Assembly: GCA_937132085.1 (NCBI GenBank)
Contig: CAKZNV010000213.1
Coordinates: forward strand, 1-37,858
Direction: 5' to 3'
Length of the DNA: 37,858 nucleotides
Source of the DNA: an uncultured Rubritalea sp.
GTDB taxonomy: Bacteria > Verrucomicrobiota > Verrucomicrobiia > Verrucomicrobiales > Akkermansiaceae
Shown here: piece by piece, positions 20,260-27,290 of the stretch
Layout: each line of letters begins with the position of its first letter
Position numbering within the stretch: position 1 is the first letter of the stretch
The notes under the pieces: generated by a model
What the model was told of the DNA's origin: nothing
The model's input: only the letters and a program-made list of their open reading frames with translations
The model's database searches: none
Made by a program: the position numbers and the translations under genes

Positions 20260-21765
20260 TTACTTAAGCTCATCAGCAAAAGCTTTAGCAGGCATTACTC
20301 CTTGGTAGATTCTTAAATTATCAATGCTACCATGGAAGCCTTTTCCAATCGTCACAGGTTCGGATTTAGGGTGATCTAGTATCGTGCTAATTTCGTTCTC
20401 AACGTAGGCGCTAATTTTCTCCATCTTGCCATCTACATAGAGTTGAATCGAATCAGTATCACCAACGCCAGATCCATTATAGATAGAAATTATTTGATGC
20501 CAGCGACCATCACGTAGGTCTGTGCTACCAATGATGTAGCCGTTTCCATATTCAGTTCTCAGTGCTCCTTTGACTCCTCCTTCACCTAGGGATTCAGGGT
20601 TTAATGTCACTCTCCATTTTGACGAAGTAGCTAGTGGAACTCCCCACTCAATGATAGAACCTACAGGCTGATGTTTTGGGCATTTAATCCAGCACACAAT
20701 CGTTCTTGGTAAATCTGAATCTATCCCCTTCCAATTGGTTTTTATATAGCTACTCTTCGGCATGAAGCTAGCTGCTAACCCATCCTTGCTAGAAGTCTGA
20801 TGCAAGCCCACTCCTGAGCCCCAACTTTTTACTTTGTATGGAACGGCGTAATTTTCAGACTGAAACATACCCCTCTCAAGATGATCAAAATTCCATGATA
20901 CCGATGGCAGCGTATTCGGTAGCTCTTTTAGAAATTGAACTTCATTCGAATCAATTACTTTTAATCGACCGCTAACATTAGCAGAACGTGAATCTCCTGC
21001 GAAGAGAGTCTCACTTTGTTTAAATTTATGAAGCGTGGTCACCATCACTTTTCCTTTGAACACATGCACCTCTTCTTCCGCTGTAGTTGGATCTATAGAG
21101 ACACCAAACTCAGTTCCTAGATCAATGACCTCAAGCTGTGGAGTCAATACCGTAAATCCCTTCGCCTCAGAAGCTACATTAAACCACACTCTACCTCGCT
21201 GAATATCCACTTTAGATTCACTAATCACGGTGATTAGTGCAGGAGCCTGAATAATAGAAGTCACTCCAGCTGAAAACTCCATCTCCACTGTGCCCTGACT
21301 AATTTCGATTGAGGAACCAGGAGCGAGTGAATTTTCATCCACACCCTCACCAGCTTCACTAGAATGCTGAATGTTATAGACTGAATATTCAGAAGACTTT
21401 ATTTTCGCCAGTGTTGGATCCTGTTTAGTATCGATAAAATACATAATACTCAGAGAAAAGATCATAAGCGCAGCAGCAGCTAGAAACGATCGCTTTATAA
21501 TGCGCTTACGCTGTCTTGCCAGAACCAGCTCCATAGAAACAACACTCTGGTGTCCATCTTGAATAAGGTTCGTTGCATCCGAAACCCGCTCTTCCAAAAT
21601 CGAGTGTAGCTGAGACAACTCACTATAGCGGTTACGGATAGTTACATCTGCCTTTAGAAGTTGTTGCAGATTGGCATGAGCCACTGCAGTAATATCACCA
21701 TCTAATAGCGAATATATCATCGCATCAACATCTTCTAGGGAATAGGTTATTGGATGATTGTTCAT
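20260..21765 (-). CDS. FecR-domain membrane protein with C-terminal LamG domain
   Basis: This is the partner of the sigma factor just upstream. A cytoplasmic part (1-90, an anti-sigma-like helical segment) is followed by one membrane span (93-111, FLAAAALMIFSLSIMYFI), then a FecR domain (about 145-240, with GSSIEISQGTVEMEFSAGV and DLGTEFGVSI). After a linker comes a LamG/concanavalin-like domain (about 285-500, with IVCWIKCP, DGRWHQIISIYNG and GSIDNLRIYQG). The plan suits sensing of an extracytoplasmic ligand, perhaps a polysaccharide, to control the sigma factor. Its start overlaps the sigma stop by 4 bp (ATGA), so translation is coupled. Ligand and mechanism are inferred. Confidence 0.88.
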   Translation of the reverse strand: MNNHPITYSLEDVDAMIYSLLDGDITAVAHANLQQLLKADVTIRNRYSELSQLHSILEERVSDATNLIQDGHQSVVSMELVLARQRKRIIKRSFLAAAALMIFSLSIMYFIDTKQDPTLAKIKSSEYSVYNIQHSSEAGEGVDENSLAPGSSIEISQGTVEMEFSAGVTSIIQAPALITVISESKVDIQRGRVWFNVASEAKGFTVLTPQLEVIDLGTEFGVSIDPTTAEEEVHVFKGKVMVTTLHKFKQSETLFAGDSRSANVSGRLKVIDSNEVQFLKELPNTLPSVSWNFDHLERGMFQSENYAVPYKVKSWGSGVGLHQTSSKDGLAASFMPKSSYIKTNWKGIDSDLPRTIVCWIKCPKHQPVGSIIEWGVPLATSSKWRVTLNPESLGEGGVKGALRTEYGNGYIIGSTDLRDGRWHQIISIYNGSGVGDTDSIQLYVDGKMEKISAYVENEISTILDHPKSEPVTIGKGFHGSIDNLRIYQGVMPAKAFADELK

Positions 21766-22310
21766 GTGGAGAAAGGAGGCGGAGTTGAGCGGACTTGATT
21801 ATCGATACAGTCTTTCAAGCTTGAGCGGAGGCGATTAAGAATGACGCGTAGACTACCCTCAGTGCGTCCATCAGTATGCGCATACTCAGCTAGTGGCACA
21901 GACTCATGGTAACGAGCTGATACTAACGCCGCGTCACGAGGTTTAAGCTTACCTAGGCAGACTTCGAGAGCTATTTTCATCTCCTCAGTCTTTTCTAAAT
22001 CCACATTAGTCTCTTCAGCGAGGACTTCTACCAGATCATCATCGAAGACTAGCACATTATCACGTTTCATCTTCTGTCGGTGCTGCATTGCACGGAAGCG
22101 AGCTGTAGCTAGCGCCCAGGCCTGGAAATTTGTCCCCATCGTGAAATCTTCACGTCTCTCCCACAGAGCTACATTAGTAATCTGTAACACATCCCTCACA
22201 TCTGAGACATTGGGGATCAGCTTAGTAATATAACCACGCATCACGGACTGATGCTCTGTCAGAAGACTGACAAATTCAGAAAGGTTTGGTGAGTTTTTAG
22301 AAGCTGGCAT
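21762..22310 (-). CDS. ECF-like RNA polymerase sigma factor (Rhodopirellula/Verrucomicrobium family)
   Basis: The protein has sigma region 2 (VRDVLQITNVALWER and FQAWALATARFRAMQHR) and region 4 (LKPRDAALVSARYHES and GRTEGSLRVILNRLRSSL), with regions 1 and 3 absent, as in ECF factors of the family found in Planctomycetes and Verrucomicrobia (TIGR02989 type). The frame extends to 22385 (207 residues); I prefer ATG 22310 (182 residues) because conserved sequence begins there. It overlaps the FecR-LamG gene by 4 bp. The PEP-CTERM gene is just upstream, same strand, and is the closest candidate target. Confidence 0.9.
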   Translation of the reverse strand: MPASKNSPNLSEFVSLLTEHQSVMRGYITKLIPNVSDVRDVLQITNVALWERREDFTMGTNFQAWALATARFRAMQHRQKMKRDNVLVFDDDLVEVLAEETNVDLEKTEEMKIALEVCLGKLKPRDAALVSARYHESVPLAEYAHTDGRTEGSLRVILNRLRSSLKDCIDNQVRSTPPPFST

Positions 22311-22452
22311 TTGATTTAGAATACTAGAAATTAATGAACGGACAAGTGAGTAAAAAACTAAAAGGTGTGCAGCGTTAAACTGCATACCTTGATATAGATT
22401 AAACTAATCGACTGCCCCCCAAAAAAAATAAAAAGAGCAGCTCGATAATAAA

Positions 22453-23094
22453 TTATTTTCTACGGCGTAGAATCAGAGCGAGTCCACCAAGTCCGAGAAG
22501 AGCAGTAGAGCTAGGCTCAGGAACTGCTGTTGCTGTAGTTCCTGAGAACTCAAGGATAGATGTGTCAGTAGCAAAATCAACTCCATCTACAAAGATTTGA
22601 CCACCTTGTTCAGTAAATTCGGCCACAGAAGCCATAGTAAGTTGAGCACCTACAGCGAGGTTAACAACAGCCACAAAAGGAAGTGGATCACCTCCACCTT
22701 GTAGGGTTATGGAGCTTGTTGCATCCACATTGACTGTGCCATTCGCGAAGAACGCAGAAAATCCACCACCGTTAATCACATTAAAAACGCCACGACCGAT
22801 ACCATCATTACCTGCATTAGTCATGGTTACTGCATCAAAAGTGATTGTGTTGGCTGCAGTCACACCCCAAGTAGGCTGACCTGCTAGCTCACCCAAGATC
22901 GGAGCATTACCAGTGGTATTAAAGATCAGGCTGTCATTGAGTGTTGAGTCTGTAATACCAGCTACTGAAGCATCCCAGTTTCCGTCATTAGAAATGTCGC
23001 CATCAATAGCTCCTGTCCATGTGATCACTGCAGACGCTGGAAGAGCCAGACTACCAAGAAGTGTTGCGCTTAGCGCTAAATGTTTAATTTTCAT
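22453..23094 (-). CDS. PEP-CTERM sorting-domain protein with an N-terminal module shared with the sulfatase
   Basis: The 213-residue protein has a signal peptide (LALSATLLGSLALPASA) and a C-terminal PEP-CTERM tail: VPEPSSTALLGLGG, a hydrophobic stretch, then RRRK. This tail is the substrate of an exosortase, which would process it for surface or extracellular release; no exosortase is in the window. The body (about 23-185) is beta-rich with ITWTGAIDG, DSLIF, and SSITLQGGGDPL. It resembles residues 19-180 of the sulfatase encoded at 24906 (LEWTGNGDG, DDLIF, SNITLRGDGNPL). It is divergent from the FG-GAP gene. Confidence 0.92.
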   Translation of the reverse strand: MKIKHLALSATLLGSLALPASAVITWTGAIDGDISNDGNWDASVAGITDSTLNDSLIFNTTGNAPILGELAGQPTWGVTAANTITFDAVTMTNAGNDGIGRGVFNVINGGGFSAFFANGTVNVDATSSITLQGGGDPLPFVAVVNLAVGAQLTMASVAEFTEQGGQIFVDGVDFATDTSILEFSGTTATAVPEPSSTALLGLGGLALILRRRK

Positions 23095-23187
23095 ATATCG
23101 TTTTATTTAGGTTGTTTATTATTGTTGTGTTGTAGTGAGTCCGACAAAAGCAGACATCCTTCATTAACAAAGAGACCCGAACTTTCA

Positions 23188-23261
23188 TTTGTTAACAAAA
23201 AACTTAAAAAAATATGAAGAGGGAGGCATTTTGAATAATTACGCAGTTACTTGTTAACAAA
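23188..23261. promoter_or_regulatory. Two TTGTTAACAA palindromes in the divergent promoter region
   Basis: The perfect palindrome TTTGTTAACAAA is at 23188-23199, and the core TTGTTAACAA recurs at 23251-23260, 62 bp apart centre to centre (about six helical turns). A half-like copy (ATTAACAAA) is near 23163. They lie between the divergent PEP-CTERM and FG-GAP/sulfatase genes. A dimeric DNA-binding protein with looping is a plausible reader; its identity is unknown. Confidence 0.6.
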
Positions 23262-23361
23262 TACCTGTCCCAAGCCTCTATATATTTCAGAGGTGGAATA
23301 CTTTTTGCATTAGCGAATCAGAGTAAATGCCCAGCTAGGAACTTAAGCGATAATCAACAGT

Positions 23362-24879
23362 ATGATAAAATCACATTACTCACTGCTACTTTTAACTGCC
23401 ACACTGTCTAATGCAGGTCCTTTTGGCGCCACTAATACGCTCCCTGAGACGACCAACTCTATCTCATGGCTGGACAACGATCGCAAGATAACAACCCTCA
23501 CCACAGCGAACATCAACGGTGATTCTAACTCAGATCTCATCGCATTGTCCCATAGTGGTGACGAAGTGACTTGGCTAGATCTATCGGCCACTAATAGCCC
23601 AAGCATTCATCTTGTAAGTGATACGAGCTATGGTCCTGAATCAGTGCTTACGATGGAGGCCACTGGTGACGCTCACATAGATGTCATAATCTCCTCACGC
23701 TGGGATCGGACACTCACTCTTTTTACAAACAATGGCAGTGGAGGTTTTGGAACTGGTAACATCATAGCCAGTAACATTGATACTGCGGTATCCCTCACTA
23801 GTGCGGATATCGATGGAAACGGCCATCTCGACATCATCGGTGTATCTGACCATCAAAAAGAACTCTTCTGGATCAGCCAAACATCTGCTGGTAACTTTGC
23901 GTCTAAGCAGCCCCTAACCACCCTCACTAGCACACCTAATAAGGTCATCGTTGCTGATATCAATAATAATAACAAGCCTGACTTAATAGTTCTCCAAGGA
24001 GGACAAATCACGATCTTTGCAAATGACGGACTCGCTGGTTTTGAGACCGTTTCTCAGCTCGGCAGTGGAGCGATCACCAGCTTCCAAGTAGCAGATGTCA
24101 ATGGAGGGCTTCCAGATATCATCACCTCATCTAGTATCCTCGGAACCTCCACGCTCTACACCAACGACAACAATGGGAGCTTCACTACCACCTCTAATAT
24201 TTCTGACACGATCACTGGATACGAGATCAGCCATGTGCTTGATCTTGACGGTGATAATCACTTAGATTTATTTTACAGATCACATCAGAACAGCACTGTC
24301 ACATGGTTCAAGGGCAATAGTTCTGGTAGTTTCACTCCACAAGCTGAACTCACCGTAAACTCTGGACCTGTCGCCAGCGCCATCGCTGACTTTGACGGGG
24401 ATCAAGATCCTGACTTAGCTCAAGCAGGCATCTACGGACCTGATCTTTCTATGCACACTGGCCTTGCTAGCAATCCCTTTGAATTCTGGGCCTATGACCA
24501 AGGGCTAGACCCATCAGTAGACCTCACCACAACGGACTCCAACAATGATGGTATTAGTAACCTCTCTGACTACGCCTTCGGTGTCTCCCCTGAAGGAAAC
24601 CCCGTCACTAGACTACCTAAAGCATTAACTATGCCAAATGGCGACATTGCCTTTGAGTTCCTTCGCCGCACCAGCAACCGTCCTCACGGACTCAGTTACC
24701 TTGTGCAGCAGAACTCCACGCTATCTGCTCCAGCTACGTGGTCCCCTGTCACACTAGATAACACTAACAGCACAGTCACTCCCGTTGACACCGACTGGGA
24801 GATGATTCGTTACATGCTAGTCTCACCTCAAGGCAGCAAGATGTTCCATCGCGTTAAAATAGAATACAGCCAACCTTAA
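23362..24879 (+). CDS. Secreted FG-GAP/VCBS repeat protein
   Basis: The 505-residue protein starts with a signal peptide (hydrophobic YSLLLLTATLSNAGP). It carries about six beta-propeller blades marked by calcium-loop motifs such as ADIDGNGHLDIIG, ADINNNNKPDLIV, DLDGDNHLDLFY and ADFDGDQDPDLAQ. A C-terminal region with DSNNDGISNLSDYAFGVSP is the dockerin-like or spacer motif seen in secreted proteins of this phylum. Likely roles are ligand or matrix binding outside the cell; no enzyme motif is seen. It lies 26 bp upstream of the sulfatase, so one transcript probably carries both. The start ATG 23362 has no Shine-Dalgarno sequence. Confidence 0.85.
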   Translation: MIKSHYSLLLLTATLSNAGPFGATNTLPETTNSISWLDNDRKITTLTTANINGDSNSDLIALSHSGDEVTWLDLSATNSPSIHLVSDTSYGPESVLTMEATGDAHIDVIISSRWDRTLTLFTNNGSGGFGTGNIIASNIDTAVSLTSADIDGNGHLDIIGVSDHQKELFWISQTSAGNFASKQPLTTLTSTPNKVIVADINNNNKPDLIVLQGGQITIFANDGLAGFETVSQLGSGAITSFQVADVNGGLPDIITSSSILGTSTLYTNDNNGSFTTTSNISDTITGYEISHVLDLDGDNHLDLFYRSHQNSTVTWFKGNSSGSFTPQAELTVNSGPVASAIADFDGDQDPDLAQAGIYGPDLSMHTGLASNPFEFWAYDQGLDPSVDLTTTDSNNDGISNLSDYAFGVSPEGNPVTRLPKALTMPNGDIAFEFLRRTSNRPHGLSYLVQQNSTLSAPATWSPVTLDNTNSTVTPVDTDWEMIRYMLVSPQGSKMFHRVKIEYSQP

Positions 24880-24905
24880 AATCGAAAACACCCATTTTTA
24901 TTACT

Positions 24906-27290
24906 ATGAAAAGACAATTACTTATTTCGCTACTACTTCTCAATCACTGCAGTGCTGCTACCTTAGAATGGACAGGGAACGGAGACGGAGCTAGCTTTTT
25001 CCAAGAAGCAAACTGGCAGATCCAAGGCGGTGGTGCAATCGCAGGTAATCCCCTCGCCCCGAGTGTCACCATCAATGATGACCTCATTTTCACAGGCACG
25101 AACCCGAACATCTCTTCAGAGCTAAAACTAGCCGCCTCTACAACCCTCACCAACAACGCAGGGACTCTCGTCATGACCAATAGTGGTGGCATGGACGGTG
25201 GAACTATCACTGTTTCTAACAACGGCTCCATCCAGAGCGACTGGATCAATAACTCTACTATAAATCTCTCCCAGTCCAACATTACTCTAAGAGGAGACGG
25301 GAATCCATTGAATAACTCCACCATTTCTTGCACTGGTAATGCCTGGACGATCAGCTTCACCGCAGAAACTTCTGCCGATGTGCAGACTGAGCACCTCAGC
25401 AAAATTACGATCAATGGACAGCCTGCCGTAGTGGGTGGAAACTGTAGTCTCACAGCCCAAGGTAATGGCGCTACTTTAGCTCCTGCACACGATTCCGATA
25501 ACGACGGACTCACCGATACATGGGAACAACAATATTTTGGTGATCTAGATGAAACAGCTGCAGGAGATCCAGATGGTGACCAGCTCACCAACCTCGATGA
25601 AGTCGCACGAGGAACTAGCCCCATCCTCAGCGATACTGATGGTGACAACTACAGCGACAAGGTTGAAACAGGCACTGGAATATGGGTTAGTAATACCGAC
25701 ACAGGCACAGATGCCCTCTCCACAGATACAGACAAAGATGGCTTACCTGATGGAGTGGAAAGTAATACAGGAACTTTTACCAAGGGCTCCGACACTGGAA
25801 CAAATCCACACTTATTTAACAGCGATAACGACCGTCTAGGTGATGGAGCTGAAGTTGCTCGTGGAACTGACCCTACTAATGCTAGCAGCCAACCAGACCT
25901 ACCCAATGTCATTTTCATTATGGCAGATGATCTCGGCTACAATCATCTAAGTAGTTACGGTCAGACACGTCTCGCTACCCCCAACATTGACTTACTGGCG
26001 ACGCAAGGCATCAAGTTCACAGATGCATACGCTGGCTGCACCGTATGCGGTCCTTCCCGATCCTCCCTCATGACTGGCATCCATAGCGGACATATCCCCT
26101 ACAAGCCTAACGTAGGACACGTGGACATCACCAGTCGCACTAGGACTGTGGCAGAAGTATTTAAACAAGCAGGCTACATGACTGGAATGTTCGGCAAGTG
26201 GGGCATCGGAGGTCTGGGGAGTGGACAGACTCCCAATGATCGCGGCTTTGATACATTCTACGGTATGTTAGATCAGGGTCACGGCCACCGTCACTTCCCA
26301 AGCTACCTGTTAGGAAATAATATTAAGCAATCACTTGGCAATACTGTCATAGGATCACAGGGAAACACAAGTAGTAATCCAGCTCACCGTGTCAAACACA
26401 CCCATGATGCCTTCACTGAAAATGCACTTCAATTCATCGAAGATCAGAAAGACAAAGCCTTTTTCTGCTACCTGTCATTTACGTTACCTCACACCGAAAT
26501 CATCGCCAGTGATGCTGTGCTTAACACTCCGGAATTTGATCCCGCACTCTGGCCAGAAACCTACACAGCCAACACTTCCGCCCATATTGCGCAGAGTCAA
26601 CCTCACAGGAATTTCGGTGCAGAGATCCGCATGATAGATAACTCTGTAGGCGCCATCGTTGCCAAACTAGAAGACCCTAATGGAGACGGCAATACCTCAG
26701 ACTCGATCACTAACAACACCTTGCTAATCTTCACATCAGATAATGGTGGTCAACTTCAAGCAGTCTGGGGTAGCGCTCCGTCGATCTACTTTAACGCTAA
26801 CGGAATTCTACGTGGAGGAAAAGAAGATAGCTATGAAGGAGGACTACGCGTCCCTATGGTAGCAAAGTGGCCTGGAAAGATAGCTCCCAATACCAGCAGT
26901 AACCTACCAACCTACTTTGCAGACTTTCTCCCTACAGTATGTGAACTTGTATCGATCAAACCACCTAAATACACCGACGGCCTATCTATAGCCCCCACTC
27001 TAAAAGGTAACACGGCCGATCAGAAAATACACCCATACCTGTTCTGGTCACATCAAGCAGGAAGACTCGACCATGCAGTGCGAGCTGGTAAGTGGAAAGC
27101 GGTAAAACGCGGCAACAACTCTATCGAACTTTACAACTTAGAAACCGATCCATCAGAAGCAAATAACATCGCTGGAAGTAACCCAACTATCACAGCTGAG
27201 ATGCTGAAAATAATAACTCGTGAATACAAAACTGATCTTCCAGACCCAATGCCCTCCCTAGCATCCCCCAAATATCCAAATCACCCATAG
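24906..27290 (+). CDS. Multidomain secreted sulfatase
   Basis: The 794-residue enzyme would cleave sulfate esters outside the cell. Domains in order: signal peptide (ISLLLLNHCSA), a beta-rich module (about 19-180) shared with the PEP-CTERM protein, calcium-binding thrombospondin type 3-like repeats (about 195-325; DSDNDGL, DPDGDQL, DTDGDN, DTDKDGL), and a sulfatase catalytic domain (333-780). The catalytic domain shows IFIMADDLGYNHL with metal-binding D341/D342, then C381-G-P-S-R385, where C381 should become formylglycine. Downstream are SDNGGQ and EGGLRVPMVAKWPG, with the usual C-terminal subdomain to the end. A C-terminal PEP-CTERM tail is absent. The substrate, perhaps a sulfated polysaccharide, cannot be told from sequence. 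Confidence 0.92.
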   Translation: MKRQLLISLLLLNHCSAATLEWTGNGDGASFFQEANWQIQGGGAIAGNPLAPSVTINDDLIFTGTNPNISSELKLAASTTLTNNAGTLVMTNSGGMDGGTITVSNNGSIQSDWINNSTINLSQSNITLRGDGNPLNNSTISCTGNAWTISFTAETSADVQTEHLSKITINGQPAVVGGNCSLTAQGNGATLAPAHDSDNDGLTDTWEQQYFGDLDETAAGDPDGDQLTNLDEVARGTSPILSDTDGDNYSDKVETGTGIWVSNTDTGTDALSTDTDKDGLPDGVESNTGTFTKGSDTGTNPHLFNSDNDRLGDGAEVARGTDPTNASSQPDLPNVIFIMADDLGYNHLSSYGQTRLATPNIDLLATQGIKFTDAYAGCTVCGPSRSSLMTGIHSGHIPYKPNVGHVDITSRTRTVAEVFKQAGYMTGMFGKWGIGGLGSGQTPNDRGFDTFYGMLDQGHGHRHFPSYLLGNNIKQSLGNTVIGSQGNTSSNPAHRVKHTHDAFTENALQFIEDQKDKAFFCYLSFTLPHTEIIASDAVLNTPEFDPALWPETYTANTSAHIAQSQPHRNFGAEIRMIDNSVGAIVAKLEDPNGDGNTSDSITNNTLLIFTSDNGGQLQAVWGSAPSIYFNANGILRGGKEDSYEGGLRVPMVAKWPGKIAPNTSSNLPTYFADFLPTVCELVSIKPPKYTDGLSIAPTLKGNTADQKIHPYLFWSHQAGRLDHAVRAGKWKAVKRGNNSIELYNLETDPSEANNIAGSNPTITAEMLKIITREYKTDLPDPMPSLASPKYPNHP

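Follow-up and report, generated by a model that had tools for sequence, protein, structure and literature searches.

Loci in which a sensor, a sigma factor, a surface protein and a polysaccharide enzyme lie together are known from the PULs of Bacteroidota, which are under ECF sigma/anti-sigma control. A second described system is FecI/FecR/FecA signalling, in which the gene of an ECF sigma factor overlaps that of a single-pass anti-sigma factor with a FecR domain. PEP-CTERM proteins have been described together with the exosortase system, and their control in Proteobacteria is by PrsK–PrsR–sigma54, mostly in single-gene operons (Haft 2006, PMC1569441). In ECF sigma factors generally, an AAC in the -35 core of the promoter and autoregulation are common features (PMC8103513).

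In this study, a region of five genes was analyzed in a stretch of 37,858 nucleotides of DNA from an uncultured Rubritalea sp. (the window). All five genes and their coordinates, as proposed in a first-pass annotation, were borne out by open reading frames and domain matches, including the 4 bp overlap of the sigma and FecR-LamG genes, the PEP-CTERM gene just upstream of the sigma gene on the same strand and the divergent unit of an FG-GAP protein and a sulfatase. The features are as follows.

20260..21765, minus strand: FecR-LamG anti-sigma factor, 501 amino acids (predicted transmembrane segment at about 93–111, FecR domain 183–240, LamG domain 340–493)
21762..22385, minus strand: ECF sigma factor of TIGR02989 (Rhodopirellula/Verrucomicrobium family), start probably at 22310
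22453..23094, minus strand: PEP-CTERM surface protein (PF07589) with a body (22–181) formed by the shared module; 61% identical orthologue in G003
23095..23361, no strand: divergent intergenic region of 267 bp with two TTGTTAACAA palindromes and a third partial site
23362..24879, plus strand: secreted FG-GAP repeat protein, 505 amino acids (FG-GAP_3); a 53% orthologue adjoins FecR-LamG in G003
24906..27290, plus strand: secreted S1-type sulfatase, 794 amino acids (PF00884, CGPSR), with a signal peptide, the module at about 18–182, a TSP3-like linker, the sulfatase domain at 333–682 and SGSH_C

As in the Bacteroidota PULs, sensor, sigma factor, surface protein and polysaccharide enzyme share one locus; however, no SusC/SusD-like pair is present among the five window proteins, and a PEP-CTERM protein is found instead. 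The overlap of the sigma and anti-sigma genes recalls FecI/FecR, whereas here LamG is fused to FecR, the genes predicted to be controlled encode PEP-CTERM proteins and sulfatases, and the system is likely to be autoregulated; a domain search of the five window proteins, with further neighbours inspected by eye, found no FecA/TonB-dependent receptor. PEP-CTERM signals and exosortase genes are present as in the described system, but the PEP genes sit in ECF sigma cassettes rather than under PrsK–PrsR–sigma54 (PMC1569441). We consider it probable that these genes make up a single ECF-sigma regulon serving a surface unit for glycan handling. The genome has about 15 paralogous pairs of a sigma factor and a FecR/LamG protein, of which the window pair is one, and most of them are accompanied by a PEP-CTERM gene. 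The domains, the recurrence of the cassette, the synteny, the shared element, and the homology and rarity of the module are read from the sequences themselves.

The sigma factor belongs to TIGR02989 (Sig-70_gvs1), scoring 153.4 bits against a curated cut-off of 124.55. The genome holds an expanded set of such sigma factors, with 33 matches, 15 of them over the cut-off; the family itself is the same as described, and what is added here is the PEP-CTERM cassette context and a candidate promoter. Since the N-termini of its orthologues (59% identity in G006 and 52% in G003; remaining paralogues at most 43%) are conserved and start at this point, the true start is probably M26 at base 22310. The longest open reading frame begins 25 codons early as judged by these orthologues, and the stretch 22310–22385 holds a TTTAACG-containing site. 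The adjoining protein has the features of a FecR-type anti-sigma factor, namely a FecR domain (PF04773, 32.1 bits, cut-off 24), one transmembrane segment predicted from hydropathy and a gene next to that of an ECF sigma factor; it also carries a LamG domain (Laminin_G_3, 36.0 bits, cut-off 27.6). Because only one membrane segment is predicted, its FecR and LamG parts are both probably periplasmic.

The PEP-CTERM protein scores 28.4 bits against PF07589 (cut-off 20.7), and two exosortases are encoded in the same genome, so that both signal and sorting enzyme of a PEP-CTERM system are present. The FG-GAP protein reaches a score of 124 for FG-GAP_3. The sulfatase scores 173.7 bits against PF00884 (cut-off 25) and contains CGPSR, the C-x-P-S-R motif of S1 formylglycine sulfatases; its closest solved relatives are 7ana (E = 3e-81) and 7an1, followed by others including carrageenan sulfatases.

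The first-pass annotation had named conservation in relatives as a check on this grouping, and four of the five genes are found together again in G003. Contig C318 of G003, a relative in the same genus, carries on one strand and with short gaps the module-bearing PEP-CTERM protein (61%), sigma factor (52%), FecR-LamG protein (42%) and FG-GAP protein (53%), and ends inside the FG-GAP gene, while the sulfatase orthologue (71%) opens contig C203 with its N-terminus cut; we infer that the two contig ends join. The FG-GAP-sulfatase unit is inverted in the window relative to this arrangement, and the linkage of four genes under two different layouts suggests that the grouping is selected for. G006 has the orthologous sigma-FecR pair (59% and 41%) on C2, unlinked from the sulfatase orthologue (about 67–70%), which is on C6 and lies a few kilobases from a LamG-bearing PEP-CTERM protein and a module-bearing one. 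A module-bearing PEP-CTERM gene near a sulfatase recurs in C51 (in the order sigma, FecR, module-PEP, LamG-PEP, sulfatase), in G003 C24 and in G006 C6. The claim that these genes form one system is thus well supported, if short of established, by the synteny in G003, an element shared with G006 (described below) and the recurrent sigma-FecR/LamG-PEP and PEP-sulfatase neighbourhoods. For grouping and regulation the evidence goes further than the first-pass annotation, which had marked the grouping as inference.

The sigma-FecR pair is widely associated with PEP-CTERM genes. Across the own genome and its relatives, a PEP-CTERM gene comes next after FecR on the same strand in 28 of 45 sigma-FecR pairs (27 by script, plus L207, a LamG-bearing PEP-CTERM protein that the script mislabelled as FecR). 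The share is ten of 15 pairs in the own genome (p ~ 6e-12) and 12 of 16 in G006 (p ~ 2e-15), p values that assume about 3% per gene and estimated gene numbers. Most of the inspected sigma factors under the family cut-off are without a cassette. The window protein is one of 15 sigma-adjoining FecR-LamG proteins in its genome; its gene order is unusual, with PEP-CTERM upstream of sigma, whereas in most paralogous cassettes PEP-CTERM follows FecR. Sulfatases come next in the C51 cassette and in both C220 cassettes. The latter are tandem sigma-FecR-PEP cassettes in G000 (L043, 5217–20000), with a sulfatase gene behind each of them (957 and at least 870 amino acids) and a sialate-acetylesterase-like gene in between. 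Two loci (L045 6085–8156 and L051 128–2199) hold near-identical sigma-FecR pairs but clearly dissimilar PEP-CTERM proteins after them; the pair may have been duplicated recently and the PEP gene swapped. LamG domains extend beyond the sensor: that of the G006 LamG-PEP protein resembles the LamG of the window anti-sigma factor (E = 3e-8), and LamG is also present in the C51 and G003 sulfatases. This use of the same domain types by sensor, anchored protein and enzyme suits the sensing of, and action on, related glycans.

It had also been claimed that the body of the PEP-CTERM protein and the N-terminus of the sulfatase share a module, and alignment confirms this (BLASTP E = 2e-8, 36% over 130 columns); the Smith–Waterman score is 128 versus 46.6 ± 8.4 in shuffles, reached by none of 2000. 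Iterated searches of the fetched loci converged on 16 stretches from 15 proteins, one PEP-CTERM protein having two. Of these proteins, 11 are PEP-CTERM proteins, and the other four are larger and have a sulfatase domain, which is confirmed by Pfam for the window, G003 C287 and G006 C2 and indicated for L086 by tblastn to the window sulfatase. The annotation had named as a refuting outcome that the module might be generic to hundreds of unrelated secreted proteins, which was not borne out. A profile built from 13 stretches matched in just 15 of the 142 genomes searched within the order, mostly in PEP-CTERM proteins and sulfatases and in several cases only in part, and the module had no match in Pfam, NCBIfam or PDB sequences. 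A further near full-length match lies in a G143 sulfatase that also carries PA14, Big and LamG. A generic autotransporter-type domain was considered and rejected on the profile search and the lack of a Pfam or NCBIfam match. The N-terminus of a PATR-repeat protein of G143 (L256, 3634–7188) opens with the W-T-G...N-W motif of the module, for which reason a distant link to, or origin via, a PATR-type protein is possible.

The link between module and sulfatase is a tendency and not a rule, because some module-bearing PEP-CTERM proteins are without a sulfatase in the fetched neighbourhood, as in G019 (CotH and LamG proteins) and G119 (LamG proteins). Moreover, the G006 sulfatase orthologue is without the module, so a sulfatase of this type need not carry it. 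In G003 C24 (L214, 1021–4241), a module-PEP and a 1141-amino-acid sulfatase come immediately after two similar transposase-like genes, and module-PEP and sulfatase are possibly mobile as a pair. In G006 C6 (L215, 7749–10436), the module-PEP has as its neighbour an 895-amino-acid protein in which retropepsin-like aspartyl protease stretches occur four times.

It is most likely that the shared module would let the sulfatase and the PEP-CTERM protein attach at the surface to a common glycan or to one another; the first-pass annotation had suggested a common matrix, and with it a sulfatase that could work on a surface layer anchored by PEP-CTERM proteins. Another view of the module, compatible with the regulon, is that it is a homotypic docking domain, rather than a glycan-binding one, by which an anchored PEP-CTERM receptor retains the sulfatase at the surface. 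The occurrence of the same domain in both partners, fused to the anchor in one and to the enzyme in the other, speaks for docking, but the fold model is weak and, for some module-PEPs, the neighbourhood fetched holds no enzyme with the module, and we hold it to be rather unlikely. The AlphaFold model of the PEP-CTERM protein is beta-rich with a mean pLDDT of 55 and a Foldseek search against the PDB gave nothing with E < 1; no fold is therefore claimed.

The intergenic region between the two units contains perfect TTGTTAACAA palindromes at 23189–23198 and 23251–23260, 62 bp apart, with another, partial site close to 23164. Exact copies genome-wide number five in G000, one in G003 and three in G006, close to the control counts of three, two and two, so that their number is not unusual; their places are. 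Over the three genomes four copies are intergenic and the other five lie inside open reading frames. In G006 one copy precedes the orthologous sigma gene on C2 by 228 bp (a 60-amino-acid reading frame over the site was treated as spurious) and another is 98 bp upstream of the LamG-PEP gene on C6, where this gene and the module-PEP lie near the sulfatase orthologue. The chance that two of three random sites fall one in each of two 300 bp regions is about 3e-8; the element was first noticed in the window, and the independent test consists of the G006 places only. G003 has a related site, TTTTGTTAACTTTTG, upstream of its PEP gene. We propose that the palindromes may be -35 elements of the sigma factor, or operators.

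The upstream regions of 43 sigma genes are enriched in a similar motif: TGTTAA occurs in 15 (2.3 expected), TTGTTAA in ten (1.0 in shuffles) and TGTTAAC in six (0.33 in shuffles). Unsupervised EM without the window orthologues returned TTGTTAACg-N14-GgCATA, the best cases of which are mostly 35–50 bp before the start; the mixing weight ran to its bound, which makes the model over-inclusive. Its -35 part, TTGTTAACg, contains the AAC known from the -35 core of ECF promoters (PMC8103513). When 683 other upstream regions were scored, the model reached 10 bits or more before 12 of the 84 PEP-CTERM genes and before 13 of the 599 remaining genes (Fisher 8e-6), and under stricter intergenic controls, restricted to genes with at least 60 bp upstream, the enrichment weakened to p ~ 0.005. 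Sigma and PEP upstream regions are more alike within than across cassettes (0 of 20000 permutations, p < 5e-5), an effect driven by a handful (such as C220b, L199, L227 and L047), and one strong pair, L226, looks like a terminator. In the window, the -35 TTGTTAAC matches well and the -10 is weak, and the full model reaches 7.0 and 8.2 bits, under the 95th percentile of the controls (9.6). A scan for sigma70-type promoters gave matches no more frequent than in shuffles.

The palindromes could also be read as an operator bound by a dimeric regulator, such as a GntR-type transcription factor or a repressor, that acts on both divergent operons, with the sigma factor autoregulated and not a direct activator of the sulfatase operon. 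Their perfect symmetry, the presence of two spaced copies and GntR-like regulator reading frames seen by eye near the G006 sulfatase cluster (L215 and L216) agree with this; however, the TTGTTAAC half stands before paralogous sigma genes in a directional form without the palindrome, and the G003 site is not palindromic, and we judge an operator of this kind unlikely.

Under the preferred reading as one ECF-sigma regulon, the single-pass FecR-type anti-sigma factor would hold the sigma factor at the inner membrane until the periplasmic LamG domain senses a glycan, its presumed ligand, and the sigma factor is freed. The freed sigma factor would then contact and transcribe from promoters with the TTGTTAAC -35 element, its putative targets being the PEP-sigma-FecR operon in which it is itself encoded and, divergent from this, that of FG-GAP and sulfatase. 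The PEP-CTERM protein would be exported and sorted by an exosortase, presumably to the surface, and the secreted sulfatase would desulfate the glycan. A rival, in which the module is solely a structural beta-rich spacer and FG-GAP-sulfatase an independent desulfation unit that neighbours the sigma-FecR-PEP cassette by chance, is improbable. With 42 sulfatase matches and 127 PEP-CTERM matches in the genome, the latter over the cut-off, some chance adjacency is expected, and the module-free G006 sulfatase fits an independent unit; against this stand the FG-GAP and FecR-LamG genes of G003, which are syntenic though differently oriented, the shared element upstream of unlinked G006 loci and the near confinement of a rare module to PEP-CTERM proteins and sulfatases. 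More tentatively, and with slightly less than even confidence, the regulon may be extended to all of the approximately 15 sigma-FecR/LamG pairs, each with its own TTGTTAAC promoter variant driving its own PEP-CTERM protein and sometimes a sulfatase, which would give modular, insulated surface switching tuned to different glycans instead of sigma54/PrsR control.

No paper linking PEP-CTERM, FecR/LamG and ECF sigma was found in a literature search; the parts are of known kinds, and their combination and the candidate promoter appear to be undescribed in the literature searched. The genomes concerned encode about 100 PEP-CTERM proteins and dozens of sulfatases each. The cassette of LamG sensor, sigma factor and PEP-CTERM protein, together with the candidate motif, yields testable regulons and offers a means of predicting which surface proteins go with which glycan signal, and an uncatalogued module connects anchored proteins with sulfatases. 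The C-terminus of the FG-GAP protein (window 23362–24879) has an ...F(Y/H)R(V/I/L)... ending that recurs in many large secreted reading frames without PEP-CTERM and is possibly another domain or sorting signature.
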